Shown here: positions 3,059 to 15,439 of the stretch, one piece after another
How the letters are laid out: the number at the start of each line of letters is the position of its first letter
Position numbering within the stretch: the first letter of the stretch is position 1
NCBI GenBank assembly: GCA_003024175.1
Contig: MDYQ01000372.1
Location: 1-64,000, forward strand
Length of the DNA: 64,000 bases
Direction of reading: 5' to 3'
Source: Planoprotostelium fungivorum
Taxonomy: Eukaryota; Evosea; Variosea; Cavosteliida; Cavosteliaceae
The notes under the pieces: generated by a model
The model's database searches: none
What the model was told of the DNA's origin: nothing
What the model saw: only the letters and a program-made list of their open reading frames with translations
Position numbers and translations under genes: made by a program

Positions 3059-3274
3059 GCAACACACGCATGTGTGGACATGCACCACCCACAAGACCAT
3101 CAACGGTACCACGACACCATAAACGGGAGCCATCAACAACAGCGACAACCCCCGCTCGTTATGGGGAAAAGGTGTTTGAGATATAAATCTTTATTGCCAG
3201 AAGGCCGACAACCTACCACAGGCCCAGCAAAGCGCCGTCACCAACGACGCCGACGCTAACTCGGCAGACGACGG
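3059..3274. repeat. Near-identical partial repeat copy left of an N
   Basis: About 95 bp from 3066 are identical to 3276 onward. After a roughly 20-bp difference the two copies match again to the end. The copy stops exactly at the ambiguous base at 3275, which suggests an assembly join rather than a biological tandem duplication. Confidence 0.75.
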
Positions 3275-3275
3275 N

Positions 3276-4720
3276 CACGCATGTGTGGACATGCACCACC
3301 CACAAGACCATCAACGGTACCACGACACCATAAACGGGAGCCATCAACAACAGCGACAACCCCCGCTCGTAAATAAATCTTTATTGCCAGAAGGCCGACA
3401 ACCTACCACAGGCCCAGCAAAGCGCCGTCACCAACGACGCCGACGCTAACTCGGCAGACGACGGCAAAGATCTCGATCGTCACACCGAAATGAGAACCAG
3501 TCTGCAGCGAAATCAGCGTCAGTCATCAAGAGACAGCCATCACTCACCTCACACGAAGGCATTTTCTGTGACAAGCATTTCATCACATCGACGCTCACGC
3601 TCGCCAACGTAGGACATCAGACTGCATACACGAAGCATCTCTCACCTCAACTTCAAAGATCGGCTGTCGCGTCTTCCCTCCACTCTCGTCTCTCGGTTTC
3701 CCTCCTCCACCTCCCTCTTGGCTCGTTCCCTTTCTTCCCTTCTCCTCCATCGTTCCACTCTCTCCCTCCTTTGTCTTTCCCTCCATGTTCCCTCCCTCTG
3801 ACAGTATTCCCTCTCCCCTCCCCTTCTCTCCTCTCTTCTTCTCCCCTCCCCTTCCCTCCCCTCTCTCGTCTCCATGATGATTTTTTTCAAAAGAGAAAGC
3901 GACCAAGTCAGAGAGGCAGAAATCACCACCTGTGTGTCCATGCTACAAACATCACATCGCCAAAGATGTTGTGACCATCAATCTCCCATTTGAACCACAA
4001 AGTCTCACCTCTTCGTGCTCTCCTGACAGCTCGAGCCGTCGTGGCTTGCATCATCCTTCCGGGACGACCAGATGTGACGGCCTCCTTCGACCTGATCCGA
4101 CGGACTGGAGAGATTCAGTCCTTGAGAAACTGTCTGTGTCGTGCTTTTTCGTGTATCTGCCATTCCGTTCGTTCGAAAAGCAGCAGTTACGTATTTCGAC
4201 GAGTACTCTTCTGAATACGTAAATTGAGTTTTCAGGAAGAACATAGTTTTAGGGGCCTCCATCTTACTGAGATGGGCGCATCCGAAGATGAAACCCTCGA
4301 TACTTCCTCGGGGGATCATTTAGATGGTAGTTTCGATGATGGTTTATAAACCTTCCTCAGAATTAGTTGAATCCTATCGGGTAGTACCCTCTCACCTTCG
4401 GATCCTGATTGCGACCACATCTCAACCGAAAGATCTCTTAATCTTAATCGGTGGCGAGAGGAATGCCAATTCTCAGTCCCATCTTGGTCCGTCCCTCTCT
4501 CGGCCAAAAGAAACAATCCAAACACAAAGACTCACAAGACATGGGCTCCTTCCGTGCATCTTGCCGAAAGAAAATGAACTCTTGGGGTTTGCCGGTGATC
4601 TACACCTCATTTACGCCTGGCGAGAAGACGGCTCGATCTACATCACATCATCCACTCCTCAGCGAGCTGCTGATCTGATCGGATCTTGTGATTTGAAAAA
4701 TGGAGGTAATATATTGAAAT
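3276..4720. repeat. Right copy of the diverged ~1 kb duplication
   Basis: It is collinear with 1025-2035 but interrupted by a polypyrimidine tract (3671-3871) and a second insertion of about 240 bp (about 4100-4340). Identity is highest in the block around 4390-4440, which matches 1750-1800. Function is unknown. Confidence 0.7.
3671..3871. repeat. Polypyrimidine (C/T) tract, about 200 bp
   Basis: The plus strand is almost pure C and T for about 200 bp, with only scattered purines. It is absent from the homologous position in the left copy (after about 1480), so it was inserted or expanded in this copy. Such tracts can form triplex structures. Confidence 0.8.
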
Positions 4721-6262: not shown

Positions 6263-6996
6263 TGACACCATACTCATCAGGTTTGAGGCTCGATCTACCT
6301 TGGATGATGGTTTTAGCGAAAAAGAACGATGTCATGATGGACTTTTCGAAAATAAAACTCCTGAATATGTTTACCGAGCTTTATGTTGTGTGGAAAAGGG
6401 TATTATTAAGACGAACGCGATGCGGCTTCACCAAGGGCATTCAGGACCCAACCAAGGCCCTACAAATTTGAAGCCACCGAGGAACGAAGAGGAGAAAGGG
6501 ACAGAAGAGGAGAAGAGAGGTGAGAAGAGAATAATTTGAATGTATATGGAACGAGAAGGTGAGATGCTGGATCATAAGGAAAAAAGAAGAGGAGAGGGAA
6601 GGAAAGGAAAGCGACGTCAATTAATGGATCACAGGGAAATTCACACGTTTGGCGAGAAGTGATCAATAAAAAATGATTCAATCTCCTCGCATAATGTTGG
6701 TCATCACATATCATCTGGATCGTCATTGTTATCATCGTGATGTTCTTATAGCCTCGAGACATCAATCTGAGAGGAAAAACGAATTCGAGGTCAACCAATT
6801 CGGGACAATGGACAAATCGACACAATGGACAATGAAATGGACAACTTGGACAACAAGATCAGAACAAACAGAAACATGCGGGAAAATGAATAACAGGTAC
6901 AGAAAAAGTAGTATAGACTATAATCATAACAAATGGGCCTTCAGACGTGAAAAAACGAACAAAATATGTGATCACCCCCCCCCCGATGATTTATTC
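6263..6996. other. Unassigned, partly purine-rich spacer
   Basis: Purine-rich runs occur between 6475 and 6615, and a run of ten C lies at 6975-6984 just before the satellite. No gene recognised. Confidence 0.4.
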
Positions 6997-8025
6997 GTTG
7001 TAGAGGGTCGGAGTTCGCTCCAGTCAACTCAGATAGACGTAAGATACGTCAGAAGAGACTATTCGATGCACGAAACTATATTTCGATCGAGTGTGATCAT
7101 GTGTTAATCGATTTATCCATGTGTTTACACATGGATACAGATGGACCAACTTCGTTGTAGAGGGTCGGAGTTCGCTCCAGTCAACTCAGATAGACGTAAG
7201 ATACGTCAGAAGAGACTATTCGATGCACGAAACTATTTTTCGATCGAGTGTGATCATGTGTTAATAGATTTATCCATGTGTTTACACATGGATACAGATG
7301 GACCAACTTCGTTGTAGAGGGTCGGAGTTCGCTCCAGTCAACTCAGATAGACGTAAGATACGTCAGAAGAGACTATTCGATGTACGAAACAAAAATTCGA
7401 TCGAGTGTGATCATGTGTTAAGAGATTTATCCATGTGTAAACACATGGACCAACTTCGTTGTAGACCGTCAGAGTTCGCTCCAGTCGACTCAGATAGACG
7501 TAAGATACGTCAGAAGAGACTATTCGATGCACGAAACTATTTTTCGATCGAGTGTGATCATGTGTTAATCGATTTATCCATGTGTTTACACATGGATACA
7601 GATGGACCAACTTCGTTGTAGAGGGTCGGAGTTTGCTCCAGTCAACTCAGATAGACGTAAGATACGTCAGAAAAGACTATTCGATGTACGAAACAAAAAT
7701 TCGATCGAGTGTGATCATGTGTTAAGAGATTTATCCATGTGTAAACACATGGACCAACTTCGTTGTAGAGGGTCAGAGTTCGCTCCAGTCGACTCAGATA
7801 GACGTAAGATACGTCAGAAGAGACTATTCGATGTACGAAACAAAAATTTGATCGAGTGTGATCATGTGTTAAGAGATTTATCCATGTGTAAACACATGGA
7901 CCAACTTCGTTGTAGAGGGTCAGAGTTCGCTCCAGTCGACTCAGATAGACGTAAGATACGTCAGAAGAGACTATTCGATGCACGAAACTATTTTTCGATC
8001 GAGTGTGATCATGTGTTAATCGATT
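6997..8025. repeat. Satellite array, seven units of 157/147 bp
   Basis: Units start at 6997, 7154, 7311, 7458, 7615, 7762 and 7909 (last one truncated). Two subfamilies exist in the order A A B A B B A. A units are 157 bp and carry CCATGTGTTTACACATGG; B units are 147 bp and carry CCATGTGTAAACACATGG. Each unit also has GACGTA-AGA-TACGTC, TTCGAT and TGATCA inverted repeats. Because 147 is 49 codons, frames stay open on both strands across B units; I regard this as a by-product of unit length. Confidence 0.95.
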
Positions 8026-8126: not shown

Positions 8127-11100
8127 TCAATGAGGAGAGAATCCATATGTATTTTCTGTCTCTTTCTTTCCTGCAGATGTTACAATAGGACTTGATTGCT
8201 CTGAACAATGAGCTTGCAGTTCTTTCACAATCTCTCTACTTGTTATTCTCTCCTTTGTCTTCCAACTGCACAAAATGTCATTCTTCTGCATCATGTGATG
8301 ACAAGCACACCATCTATGCATGATGGAATCATGTACACCAGTTCCTTTGCTGACAAGCCTTCCTCCTCCCGTCACATACTCTCTGACCTGCATCTCTTAT
8401 CATTCATTCCATTTCATCCATTGCAGTCACCTCTCTTTCATTCATGTTGCCATATGGTGTCTCTCCGTTGTTCATCACTTCCCTGTTGCTTATCAGTCTC
8501 TTGGCCTACCAACGCAAGATGATCACCAGAAGAGAACGCCAAAGGACCAGATGTCAGAAGCAAAGCTGTGTATTCTACTCACCATCACCTCTGGTGCCTA
8601 TTGTGATCAGCTGTCATCCCCATGGTGTCTATCATAATATTTTTGTACACTTGCATTACTCACATCCCATCGATTGTCTCTCTCTGCAGCTCTCTCTGCT
8701 TTCTTTCCTGCCTTCAACGAATCTCCTTCTCATCATCATCATTCTCATTCTATCAATCTTCACTTACCAAAGCTGCTCAGCTTGGCTGTGTCTCCTTGTA
8801 TCATCACATTTCTTGCTGCCACCTGTGTGTGTACAACCTCAGCTGACTCAAGATACGATAACGCTCTGCCAATGTGCAGCATTCTGTTCTTGTGTCACTC
8901 TCTTTCCATTCAATTTGATACACAGAATATGTGAAGGAGTGACCCACATTGTGTATTGCTCAGATACTTGAACAGAATGATCTCTCAGCCTGTCAAGTAA
9001 ATTGCATTCCATCAGCTCAAATAGTATCCATGTACTGCCTCCATTGTCGTTGAAGTATGATAGATACTGTACAATGTTTGGATGATGCATTCCCTATTGA
9101 GAGTCAGATGTGCACAGCTCAGTTGCAGCTATCTCACCTTCAGCACATACAGCTCGTTTCTTGTCTTCTGTGCGTCTCTTGTCACTTCCACCTTCTTGAC
9201 TGCCACCTGTGTTGTTCCTGACTGCAGTCCTCTGTACACAACACTGTGCTGACCTTGTCCTACCTTCTCCTCTAGTGTCACATGTTGCTGTTCATCTTCA
9301 GTGATTCTGTCTCAACATCCATTGTCTCTATCAGATGTACAAGCAACTCACAGAAGCGTCCATAGTCTGCATGGGCATCTCATTCATGTTCATCTGTTAC
9401 CATTCTCAGTTATCTGTGGAATATCTGCACTCCACCTTTGATGCAGTTCTTCTCCTTTTCAATATGATCAATACTACCACAATCAACACAAGAATCAGTA
9501 TTGCTGCCCCTACTGCAATACCTATTCATGGGTCAAATTTGCTGATTGGATGACATCAAAGAATGGCTCACCAATGATGATGTAGATCGAAAATGGTGAT
9601 GGTGGGGTGGGTGTGATAGGCTTGCTGGATTGTACTGGTGCAGGGCTGCCAACAGTAAAGTTGGTAAGATGGTCACACATGCATGTGATGACAAAGCTTG
9701 TCATGTTTCTCTCTGTTCTACATCCATCTCCTCTCCATGTGTTGCTTGTAGCGTTGTAGTAGAGACAAGACACAGCCATGAGCTGATCAGCTGTGGTGAT
9801 GCCAATGGTGGGAATGATGATACCTATGGGCTCTGGAGAATTTGTCACCTGTGATGTGAATGAATAATAATATGAAACATCTTGCTCACCTCTACTGGGT
9901 GGCCGTCTGCATCTGTGATCGTCAGCCCATACACTGCAGCTGACAGGTTAGACGGTGCGGCCACTGTAAAGTTCTCGCTGCTGTAGTTGTACTGCATGAA
10001 CACCACCAGCGCTGGTGCACTCTGCTGGCTTGCGTTTCTCTTGTTCTTCAGATCTTCCAGCAAGCTCAGTGTGATAGATGCTGTGGCTTGTGTTGACTTC
10101 TCCTTGTTGTCTCCTGTGGCTGTGCCAACTTGTATAGTCACCACACTTGAGTTCAGCGTGGGTCTTGTAGTGTCGTATGCTGTGAGAGCAAGAGAAGGAG
10201 AGCTGATGCTGATGGGATTGGATGATGTCTTGTTGGCAAACAGCTGAGACATGACAGTGAATACAGCTGCTGCAGAGATGGTCTTGTTGGCTGATCCAAT
10301 CTGCTGGATGCTGCTGTTGGCTGTCTGGTCTGAGATGGGTGGGGTGATCAATGTCCCATTGAATGTTGTGGTGGTGTTTGGAGATGTAGCGCTCGATATT
10401 GAAGTGGTACCCAACGTGCTTGGCATTGATGTACTGCTTGACGATGTGGTACTCGATGTAGTACTTGATGTTGTACTTGATGTGGTGGACGACATGTTGG
10501 ATGAAAAAGTTGTGTAAGTGGGAGCCCCACAGCTTCTTGTCTGACAGTCATAGTTGTCTCGTGACACTGTTTTGTTGCAGCCACTACTCAGCAGAATGCT
10601 CGATGACTGGCTTGACTGTACTCCACAGAAGAGATCGGCTGAATCGGTAGTCAAGTTTGAGCTGCCGTCCTTTGTGACAGAAGGATAAGCATAAGATGAG
10701 ATGTTGCATCGATACACCTCCTGCCTTGTGCCTGCAATGTATCAGTCTGATGTCTGTACATCTCATTGTTACCTCCACTGAACAGCATGGGAGTGGATGT
10801 GACAGTGAAGCTGCAGCTGTCAATGGCTGCATCTGAGTTAGACTGAATGGAATAAGAGCTGTCGTGGATGAAAGTTGATGAATTGACCATCAGCAACTGT
10901 CGATTCACAGCGACGAACGTGATCACTGTCTGAGTTCAACAAACGTTCTACCAAACTACCTCACCCGCAGAAGTAGAATTTGAGACGAAATTTTGATTGA
11001 AACTGGATCGATCAATAGTGGACGAATTCGTGAAGGACATGACACCTCCTGCATCACATCAATCGTCATTCATCTTTCCATCACCAATGTGAGCTTCTCA

Positions 11101-14100
11101 CCTTGTGCCGTATTGTTCTTGAATTCAGTTGTTCCAATGGTGAAGGGAGAATCTATCGATTGTACGATGTAACACTGACTATTGCTACAAATATTTCCAT
11201 TCACAGTGACATTTGTCATCTGTACAATGGAGTGAAGCACCACGATGACTATCAAATGTCATGGATAGATAATATCGTTCTCCTCACCTGTGCCAGAAGC
11301 TGCCTGATTGTTCGTGATCGTCACATTTGTCAATATCACCGAGATACAATTCCTGAGATACGCAACGCCTCCAACGCCACTGTTAAGAGCAATGTTTCCA
11401 TCATATACGCTTCCGTCGTCTGCAAACGTCAGATCAAAGGACAAGGGTGATCTATCACCTCGAAAGTTACAGTTGTTTTGGTCCATTTGAGATACCAATC
11501 CCTGCACTCCGTCACCTCTGTTTCGAGTGAAGTGACAGTAGAAATTTTTTATGAAAGACTGGCCATCTGTTGTCGTCATTTCTGGGACAAGATGTGAAAT
11601 GTACTCACACACGAGTGATTGACTGATGGTGTTGTTATCAAAGCGGCTGTAGGACAGATAAGCACTGGCGCTATTGATGAGCCACGCAGAACCGACATTG
11701 TTGACGAACGTACAGTTTGCGGCAAGGATGAGGCTTCCTACATTGTACAATAGAGCTATTCACGTTAATTTCTCATTCCGTTTTTGAGGGTCTCACGGAT
11801 CGATGCAGTTGTATAGCACGAATCAAATGTGCAATTGGTAAGGGTGACGTAAGCGTTCGTCGCAGATGTACTGATGATACTGGGACCACACCGAATGAAA
11901 AAATTGTTCACACCTGATGAACGTGTCAAAAGATTGAATTTCTCTCAAATCACCCGTGAGCATATTGAAGAAATGGATAATAGAAGACGAATTGGTGTTG
12001 ACGTCCCGAAAGATGTTGTCCGTGAAAAGGAGAGGATTATCGTTCCTTATCAGGGTGGAAACTACAACGAGTCAGATAAAATTCACATCTCGAATCCACT
12101 CACGTATCACATCGTTCTTCGTCTGCACGTTGCTGAAGCTGCAACCGACCACTGAGATTTCATCTCCTACCTCCACCATGTGCATGTCTCCAGGTGGTGT
12201 ACCCGAGAAATCGGAAGAATTCAGAGATACTGCCCCTGTCACCTTCAAGGCACTGTTCGAAAATTGCGGTCTCCCTCCCACTCCAGCCGTCACCAACAGA
12301 TAACCGGATGTGACGAATCGACTGTTTGACATCTGTCCAGATACGATGAAAGTGGTACATCCGAAATTCATAAAGGAAGCTATGACGGATGTATCGGCGA
12401 TGGTCAAGTCTGAGGTCACATCAACGACACGAATCGAAGTGAAGTACTCACTCTGACAGGCGATAGCAGTTGGGGTCACGAATCGATTCAATGTAGAGGA
12501 TTTGAATGTGATCGATAGATTTGGATTCGCCGTGGTGAGATTGAAGAGAGACAGATTTCCGTTCTGTACCGTGAGAGAAGTGACATTACCATCCAACTTG
12601 AGTGAGTTGCTCGTGGACCAACTGCTGTTGACGATGTTGACTTGCAGGACGTTACTGATCTGGAGTGTGACCGAGATGGTCAATTTGGGATCCATAGCCG
12701 TCAGTGTGAGAGACTTCAATGGAGTGGCACCCGGCCACATCAGTGAAGACTTCTCTACCGTGTTGGCATTTACGCGAAGTGTAATGTCTGAGCCACTGGC
12801 ACAAGTACTGCTGTTTGTCGCATATTGAAATGCTGATGGATGTGAGTCGAATGACATACCCGACCTCACCTCTTCCAAAAGTGGAACCTGAGATATCGCA
12901 AGGGGGGCAGATGGGCCTGGCCTGACAGTCGTAATTGTCGAGGGAGAACGTGTAAGGACAAGTGGTGGAGAACAGAACATTCGAAGGTTGTGAAGATTGA
13001 ACGTGACAGAAAGTATCGACGGAATCGGTCGTCAGACTCGTCAAACTTCCGTCGACCTTCACCGATGTGATGAGGGCATCGAGTCCGTTGGATTGTACCA
13101 ATTGATTGGTGCCTGCGATCTCTCAACAAAATGTCGTGAAGGTAAAGTCACCTCCGGTGAGGTACAAGGGGGCAGATGCAGCCTGAAAAGTGCAGTCTTG
13201 GATGTTTACGCTCGTGCTGGATAAGATACAGTATGGGAGGCCACTGGACGATTGATCGGTGGTGAAAGTAGTACCGCTGATGTTTGTCGGTTGATTTGAG
13301 CTACCAGAGAGATTCAAGACTGAGAGATTCAGTCATTTGATGGAAATTCGGTGGAAACTCACTCGAAGTACTGTACGATGGATCAGAAGCGGCGATCGTG
13401 TTTCCGAAGAAAGATGAATATGTGATTTGAGATGGACCTGAAGTCATGATGATGCCACCTTCAACCGATGAATCAGTGACATCAAATCGACATCATCAGC
13501 TTCACCTCCAGCAATATTGTTCTTGAACGTGGAGTTGTTTATCCCCAGAGAAGTCATACCGACGTTCATGACGAAGCAGCGACTGTCATTCAAAGAGCAC
13601 GAGTTACCATCGAAGGTGACGTTGGTCATCTGGATTTGTAGCGATGGATCGGTCACCACGGCTGGTGCGATGTCAAAGATGTAATGGGCGAAGGACGCTT
13701 CACCTGCACCGTACGAAGCGCTGTTGTGGGTGAAACTCGTATCAATGAGTTTGATGATAACCGTTTGATTGATGTAGATGGCTCCTCCCATTCCATCACC
13801 GGAAACTTGATTCGAATCGAAGACACTTCCGATGTCTGTGAACGTCATCATTCTCCGATATCGACGATTTGATTTCGATATCCATGATACGACCGGCTCA
13901 CCTTCCATGTGACTACCCCGGATGACACCTCCGTAGCCCTTGGCCGTATTCAGAGTGAAGTTGCACTGAGTAGTCTGGGCTCCTCCAGCTGTTCATCATC
14001 CATCAGATCTCTACGTCACACACCGACTCACAGATGGGAGATCGATCGATCGTGTTGTTCACCATGGTGACTCGAGTCAAACGTGGCCACTGAATCGAAC

Positions 14101-15439
14101 TGACCAGAGAAGAGATCCCCACGTTGTTGATGAAGAGTGTGTCTCCCACGTTGATGGCACCACTCGTCGAATCCAACAGATCTGATGAGGTGAGAGAGAG
14201 AATAACGACCGTACTCACTTCTGGAACTGGAAGTCGTACACGAATCGAAGAGGGAACTATCTTGTATGTATGCACCGTACGTGTTACTGAATACGGCATA
14301 ACTACAGCGGACGAAATGGCAGCGAGTGATGATTGCGGCACGAACCGCTTCAATGAGGAGGGAAGAGGCATCGACTCGAACGTCGGTGAAATTATTTCTC
14401 GCGAAATAAATGTTCTTAGAGGAGTCGTCCGAGGTGGAGACTGAAAGAAGTCAGAGAAACACTTTCATCAGTCTCACCGATCATGGAGGCTGAGGTGATC
14501 TGGATGTTCTGGAAGGTGCAGTCCGATATGGACAGGTCACCATTGCTGTTAACCAATGGAGAACTAGAGGTACCGGTGAAGTCAGCCGAGGTGATGTTCG
14601 CTTGACTGGTTGCGGTGAGGGACGAAGAGTAGAAGATGGACCTTCCATGATCTCCTCCGAGTACGGTGATCGAGTTTGTTTGGATTGTCTGCAGAGTGAG
14701 ACGAACTGAGATGAGGAGGGCGGAGCAGAGGAGCTTCTGGGTGGCTGGTGGGTAAGATGCTGTCAAGTTCGAGTTGACAATGATCGCATCTGGAGACGGG
14801 GTGAGGTGAAATAAAGAGTCTGTTCTCACTGTTGCAGTTCACGTTTACGAACCTAGGATCGATGAACTCCGAGTCGATGATTGTGAGATCAGTCACAGCC
14901 ACAGCTGGATTTGGGAATGAGAAGGTGAAGTATTTAAAGGAGGAGGATTGGAAAACCAAAGAAGTGATGGTACCATCGAAAGTGAACGTGGACTGTCCGT
15001 TACAAACGATTCCGACGAAGTTGATCTAGTGAAGATCAGAAAGATCAGATCTGAAACATGTTGAACGTTCCGATTTGTGATATGATGAATACTTCACCTG
15101 ACCAATATTGGCAAAATTAAGATTAATCGTATTGATGAAGGTCAACCCCGTAGTGCTAGTCACGTTGAGAGAGACGAGTGGAGAAGTTCCACTGTAGCTC
15201 AGCGTCGATGTTTCGGTTGTAGGAGAAGAAGATGTGACCGTGATTATGTATGGTTGGTTCGAGGAAGAACACTTGCTCTGAGCATCTTGAAAAGCTGAAA
15301 CCCCATAAGAACGTGATCCTGTTCCATCCACATTAATAACATTACCGGCGAGAAAAGTGATTCCGTTTCCGTTACACTGGCCATTTACCACTAAGAAGAG
15401 AGAAAGTAGAAGACAATTGACGAGAGCGGTTCGGCTCAT
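8127..15439 (-). CDS. Receptor pseudokinase with beta-helix ectodomain and GPS
   Basis: A multi-exon gene for a very large type I membrane protein. It starts with a signal peptide (MSRTALVNCLLLSLFLVV, 15439). Exons from about 15.3 to 10.9 kb encode Asn/Ser/Thr-rich strands with GGAIY and FxxN-type repeats, as in right-handed beta-helix or chlamydial Pmp-like proteins; a Cys-containing segment (DNYDCQ) occurs twice (about 12.95 and 10.55 kb). A Ser/Thr run (SSTTSSTT) precedes a GAIN-like region and a GPS motif at about 9.65-9.78 kb with W, GC and CMCDHLTNF, so the HL/T cleavage site is present. A membrane span ending KRRR follows (about 9.5 kb). The kinase domain has GQGQHSVV, VAVKK, ELYVLK, then HTQVAARN for HRD, SSFG for DFG, SDIWSFGVLFW, NGETPYGNM and RCWKTKERITSREI. 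Both catalytic Asp are absent, so it is probably a pseudokinase. Kinase-exon joins are in frame; ectodomain joins are less certain, and two genes cannot be wholly excluded. Confidence 0.8.

Follow-up and report, generated by a model that had tools for sequence, protein, structure and literature searches.

The GPS is classically located before 7TM domains. In adhesion GPCRs, it carries the HL|T site and is combined with a GAIN fold and a large recognition ectodomain; passages of PMC12716839 place the GAIN/7TM pairing at the stem of Holozoa and describe the TxFAVLM tethered agonist as an adhesion GPCR feature. The GAIN domain is also used outside the ordinary adhesion GPCRs in polycystin-1/REJ-type proteins, and polycystin-1 appears in passages of PMC13197933 as an atypical aGPCR with a GAIN domain. 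In choanoflagellates and sponges, GPCR-TK and GPCR-TKL/K fusions, which have 7TM regions, are examples of surface receptors with a C-terminal kinase (passages of PMC12716839). Tyrosine kinases with a membrane span are reported, again in passages of the respective papers, to number seven in Acanthamoeba (PMC4053784) and three in Physarum (PMC4758236); the word GPS is absent from the main texts of both papers.

Here we describe a gene in a 64,000-nucleotide stretch of Planoprotostelium fungivorum DNA (contig MDYQ01000372.1, positions 1 to 64,000, hereafter the window) whose predicted product shares the GAIN fold, the GPS with HL|T and a large recognition ectodomain with adhesion GPCRs, but has one span and a tyrosine-kinase-type tail in place of a 7TM region, and no TxFAVLM tethered agonist after its cut. 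It resembles polycystin-1/REJ-type proteins in using GAIN outside ordinary adhesion GPCRs and differs from them in its single span and kinase, with no PKD, REJ or PLAT match in Pfam at E up to 1. With receptor tyrosine kinases and pseudokinases it has in common a signal peptide, an ectodomain, one TM, a TK-group domain and a C-terminal tyrosine, whereas the GAIN/GPS between ectodomain and TM is its own feature. Its C-terminal kinase recalls the GPCR-TK and GPCR-TKL/K fusions; however, the family to which it belongs has one TM. We did not find GAIN, one span and a kinase described together in the passages of the literature searched, and we rate the novelty of this architecture, which joins two known kinds, as high but not certain.

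The gene model was predicted by script from reading frames and splice consensus. It occupies 8127..15439 on the minus strand, with its ATG at 15439 and a TGA that ends at 8127, and comprises 32 exons encoding 1924 amino acids with no internal stops. Its introns are GT..AG and 37-66 nt long, with the exception of intron 1 (138 nt), and phase 1 is common to introns 2 to 20; alternatives exist for intron 1 (15163..15026) and for several ectodomain introns. The GPS, the single membrane span and the kinase-type domain all lie on the minus strand (by Pfam and hydropathy), and the encoded order is signal peptide, two tandem beta-helix-type units, Ser/Thr-rich stalk, GAIN/GPS, linker, TM, kinase-type domain and short tail. 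The earlier note, which named no strand, had read a GPS followed by one span and a kinase-like domain, and this is borne out by PF01825, hydropathy and PF07714 in one spliced frame. The Pfam search of the spliced protein that it proposed returned PK_Tyr_Ser-Thr (PF07714; E 1.4e-43, residues 1663-1895), GPS above the cut-off and a sub-threshold Beta_helix. Its extent of 8127..10720 is correct at the left edge, where the stop codon ends, but takes in only the C-terminal third of a gene that runs to 15439; overall, a receptor pairing a GPS with a kinase-like tail is supported.

Directly downstream of the gene's 3' end, a tandem array at 6994-8025 has periods of about 147 and 304 bp (89-92% matches) and contains inner palindromes, e.g. 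CCATGTGT..ACACATGG. At 3060-3450, a lone N at 3275 stands between two copies of one stretch, which suggests an assembly join within a repeat. An Rfam search of the window gave no matches.

We searched 5.8 billion proteins (7998 candidates scored) for relatives of the window gene. Ten of the 14 best matches were P. fungivorum proteins and the other four were EukProt ORFs (P0009-P0012); all 14 carry both GPS and kinase Pfam models. The best relatives are 55-58% identical; the gene's own protein was not among the matches of this search, and if a public model of it exists, that model may be split or may fall outside the length limits. The four EukProt ORFs bear Trinity transcript names tagged 'complete' and extend from a hydrophobic start through the kinase, with ectodomain, GPS, TM and kinase on each. 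Searched against the same 5.8 billion proteins, the GAIN region of P0012 matched only P0012, P0010 and P0011. Profile A3, for which only the 7999 candidates sharing most words were scored, found one further GPS and kinase protein, P0101 (P. fungivorum), among the best 120 of 131 matches. The public model P0014 (locus L016, C337:98900-108600) continues into an apparent neighbouring MRG/chromodomain gene, and other family members are publicly named, for example, cell wall surface anchor or Src protein.

The predicted protein begins with a hydrophobic N-terminus, MSRTALVNCLLLSLFLVVNG (15380..15439, minus strand, as are all features of this gene below), which hydropathy suggests is a signal peptide. 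Two beta-helix-type units follow, at 12870..15379 and 10565..12832, each with a DNYDCQ motif at its end. The first was recognized by Pfam Beta_helix (E 0.005 at residues 237-398 of the spliced protein, below the curated cut-off) and by its repetition in the second; in BLASTP of the two halves, without composition correction, the units are 30% identical over 661 aligned positions (E 2.7e-77). The stalk at 10349..10564 is defined by composition (61% S+T, residues 1301-1372), and the corresponding stretch (465-627) in the predicted model of the paralogue P0004 is of low confidence. Ectodomains differ among the 14 best relatives: by Pfam, five have Chlam_PMP repeats, three have Beta_helix and three have leucine-rich repeats. 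Because Protostelium aurantium eats fungi (abstract of PMC11237637), prey recognition is a natural guess for the role of the ectodomain.

The GPS motif (C..W..GC..C.C.HLTNF; 9651..9770) matched PF01825 with 35.6 bits in the genome search, at 9770..9651, and with E 3.2e-6 and 28.0 bits in the spliced protein (curated cut-off 22.5). The cleavage triplet H-L-T is present (CMCDHLTNF, residues 1585-1587); the predicted cut falls at L1586|T1587, between nucleotides 9666 and 9665, and is followed by TNFTVGSPAP. We placed the GAIN domain, including the GPS, at 9654..10336, with an intron (9889..9849) inside, on the basis of profile A4 and of the predicted fold of P0004. Searched against the PDB at E up to 1, profile A4 matched adhesion-GPCR chains only (best 2.7e-9). 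As VIA-align of the whole P0004 model gave only kinases, its GAIN part was modelled separately; folded alone, it has a GAIN fold whose nearest solved chains are those of ADGRG1 (5kvm), GPR110/ADGRF1 (8hc0), ADGRG6 (6v55) and CD97 (9mqr). The GAIN fold that the earlier note wished to see in a structure prediction is thus present in a predicted model of a paralogue. A sequence search with only the GAIN part upstream of the GPS found nothing in the PDB at E up to 1, so that GAIN membership beyond the GPS comes mainly from the paralogue's predicted fold. On these models, a GAIN fold is predicted to surround the GPS.

A linker of 31 residues separates the GAIN/GPS from a predicted single TM helix (9457..9572, with an intron at 9571..9522 inside), after which comes KRRR. 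By hydropathy, the only strongly hydrophobic segments are the signal peptide and ~9572..9457; in the P0004 model, helix 860-881 is the counterpart of the latter, and one TM helix is followed by the kinase. We interpret this as a probable single span with an extracellular N-terminus. A juxtamembrane mini-exon, MNMNEMPMQTMDAS (9352..9393), was assigned by frame and by alignment with relatives.

The tyrosine-kinase-type domain (8127..9287, PF07714) is encoded by eight exons, all open and joined in frame. Candidate frameshifts near 8900 and 8530 were rejected; both are short introns, and the paralogue L015 has an intron at the ~8900 place. The best solved chains for the window kinase are EGFR, a SRC-ABL ancestor, ITK, CSK and ABL, and the predicted kinase fold of P0004 is nearest to SYK, RET and FGFR. 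In a 38-row tree, the family and the TK rows were split at 96/98 from plant RLK, WNK, STE20, PLK4, CDC15-like and bacterial kinases. The kinase domain therefore belongs to the TK group. Its catalytic set of K, HRD-D and DFG-D is incomplete: the window copy keeps the VAVKK lysine and has lost both aspartates, with HRD changed to HTQ (HTQVAARN at 8831..8808) and DFG to SFG (SSFG at 8777..8706, across an intron). Among 27 P. fungivorum members read, a count that includes near-copies, the HRD aspartate is lost in 21 and the DFG aspartate in 18. Both are retained in only two of the 27, L013 (with DFS) and L015 (HTD, DFG), and in all four EukProt members. Left out of this count were L016 (the locus of P0014), L018b, L019, L020, L020b, L021, L021b, L024, L024b, L028, P0007 and P0101, the last of which has HTN and GFG in its kinase motifs. 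Most sampled copies are predicted from these motifs to be catalytically inactive.

Such losses bear on the strongest of the alternatives, an ordinary receptor tyrosine kinase in which ligand-driven dimerisation switches on the kinase of the receptor itself, GAIN serving only as an uncut folding spacer. The single span, the TK-group kinase and the intact aspartates of the EukProt members are as this alternative would have them, and solved structures include an uncleaved GAIN domain (8oek). However, at least one catalytic aspartate is missing from the window copy and, among the other 26 P. fungivorum members read, from 24. Furthermore, H-L-T is contiguous in 22 of the 27 P. fungivorum GPS loci read, and in another three (L029-L031, in which the exon breaks after H and LTNF lies further downstream) splicing apparently restores it; this retention counts against a spacer because a mere spacer would not need HLT. 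We consider an ordinary receptor tyrosine kinase unlikely. Elsewhere in the GPS, L014 has HFT in place of HLT, L028 keeps HLT and has lost one preceding cysteine, and L015 has DNC where other members have GC.

It is less likely again that an adhesion or feeding receptor carries its kinase part as a decaying relic. The eight open, in-frame kinase exons do not fit decay, even though the window copy has lost both aspartates and many other members one or the other. Strong purifying selection was found in a single degenerate subfamily, the only one free enough of saturation for the test and one that does not include the window gene: among L018, L022 and L023 (DYR for HRD; 129 codons), dN/dS is 0.033, 0.044, and 0 with 10 synonymous differences, although these pairs are close copies between which gene conversion is possible. 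Among L029, L030 and L031, dN/dS is saturated or nearly so. In the subfamily tested, the pseudokinase domain is thus under strong purifying selection and not decaying.

Retention of the tail tyrosine also argues against a relic. In the window gene, the C-terminal tail KKETENTYGFSPH (8130..8168) contains it at codon 8147..8145. Of 39 family tails, 37 have a tyrosine among their 17 C-terminal residues (34 of 36 when only distinct tails are taken), although the tails are not independent because members share ancestry and some are near-copies. Composition alone would give about 0.40 per tail, and among 204 other proteins from these searches, 46 have such a tyrosine. P0007 (incomplete), P0014 (which extends into the following gene and is represented by its locus L016), L019 (contig end), P0101 and P0107 were excluded. 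The two tails without a C-terminal tyrosine are those of L015 and L020b. L015 (C109:172000-181700) has both aspartates yet no tail tyrosine, the reverse of the pseudokinase members; this is a single case, but together with the DNC of its GPS it weighs against the reading favoured below. SH2 domains, possible phosphotyrosine readers, gave 79 exon matches in the genome, all above the family cut-off.

To place the locus in its genome, we compared the positions of GPS and kinase matches across the 36.9 Mb assembly. The GPS profile search scored 150 of 176 candidates, all 150 above the cut-off; this number is not a gene count, as some loci are near-copies, perhaps haplotypes. Kinase exons were located by PF07714 (150 of 169 matches used) and by three family kinases (150/156, 73/73 and 42/42). 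For at least 73 of the 150 GPS sites, a lower bound, the same strand carries a kinase match 100-2500 nt downstream, and the nearest such matches lie 237-1099 nt away; the control counts are three same-strand upstream, one opposite-strand downstream and none opposite-strand upstream. This adjacency is more than chance. Of the 27 GPS loci read, seven of which had been picked for a kinase match and 20 had not, 26 have a kinase exon downstream at E <0.01 and the other (L021b) at 0.02, while no kinase exon lies upstream or on the opposite strand. The script identified a TM in 24 of these loci, and in L017, L026 and L027 it is apparently split by an intron. L018, L021, L022, L023 and L024 (contigs C1, C196 and C335) are near-identical GPS-pseudokinase genes in tandem, and represent recent amplification or unmerged haplotypes. 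After some of these tandem copies comes a new start, with an ectodomain that resembles leucine-rich repeats.

It is very improbable that two adjacent genes, one for a GPS surface protein and one for a kinase, were wrongly joined in our model. The public model of P0014, a receptor with an MRG-type domain, does look like a fusion of two genes; however, the 32 exons of the window gene run in frame without a stop, the TM-to-kinase introns are 42 and 64 nt long, the downstream kinase matches recur in one direction and within a narrow range of distances at all 73 sites, and the transcript ORFs P0009-P0012 each hold all the parts from ectodomain to kinase. A disguised 7TM adhesion GPCR whose helices after the GPS were missed can be set aside almost entirely, for although the GPS classically precedes 7TM domains (passages of PMC12716839), there is a single hydrophobic segment after it, the P0004 model passes from one TM helix to the kinase, and family-2 GPCRs of Amoebozoa are without GAIN in a data set that includes P. 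fungivorum (passages of PMC10445921), while the lack of PF00002 matches in the genome shows little because that search matched in no control genome either.

We therefore favour, with a probability of roughly 0.6, a type-I receptor with a single pass, one member of a large family in Amoebozoa (the 'GAIN-TK receptors'), that works by self-cleavage, clustering of the stub and trans-phosphorylation of the tail tyrosine. The order of its predicted parts, established from sequence and from the predicted fold of a paralogue, is recognition ectodomain (of beta-helix type here, with leucine-rich repeats in some relatives), GAIN/GPS with intact HL|T, one TM, TK-group domain and tail tyrosine. Under the favoured reading, GAIN would cleave itself at L1586|T1587, leaving two fragments associated as a heterodimer. 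A ligand, prey wall or neighbour would bind or pull the ectodomain and so alter or strip the N-terminal part, upon which the C-terminal stub may cluster or reorient. Because there is only one helix, and TNFTVGS after the cut is without TxFAVLM, signal transfer would be expected to proceed through clustering of the stub rather than by way of a tethered agonist within a 7TM bundle. The few catalytically intact members, or cytosolic tyrosine kinases, might then phosphorylate the tail tyrosines, including those of pseudokinase members like the window copy, and SH2 proteins would read the phosphorylated tails. HER3, a receptor pseudokinase that works with active partners, offers a parallel to such trans-phosphorylation. 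A wider reading is more tentative, and we put it at a little under even odds: some 150 self-cleaved GAIN-TK receptors in one species would form a new class in Amoebozoa, in which an active minority serves a pseudokinase majority, the tail tyrosine is the output, and release of the ectodomain, whether mechanical or driven by ligand, is read directly as phosphotyrosine without G proteins.

A single-span GAIN-kinase receptor could couple release of the ectodomain to phosphotyrosine signalling. If this is true, GAIN can serve as a portable switch, for release or for force, without needing a tethered agonist in a 7TM bundle, and a single-helix system would allow the role of autoproteolysis in signalling to be separated from GPCR activation. 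The family is also a large natural collection of receptor pseudokinases, some of which are under selection. In passages of the literature, GAIN/GPS is tied to polycystin-1 and to receptors with 7TM; in this amoebozoan, receptors of tyrosine-kinase type with a single pass use GAIN at scale.
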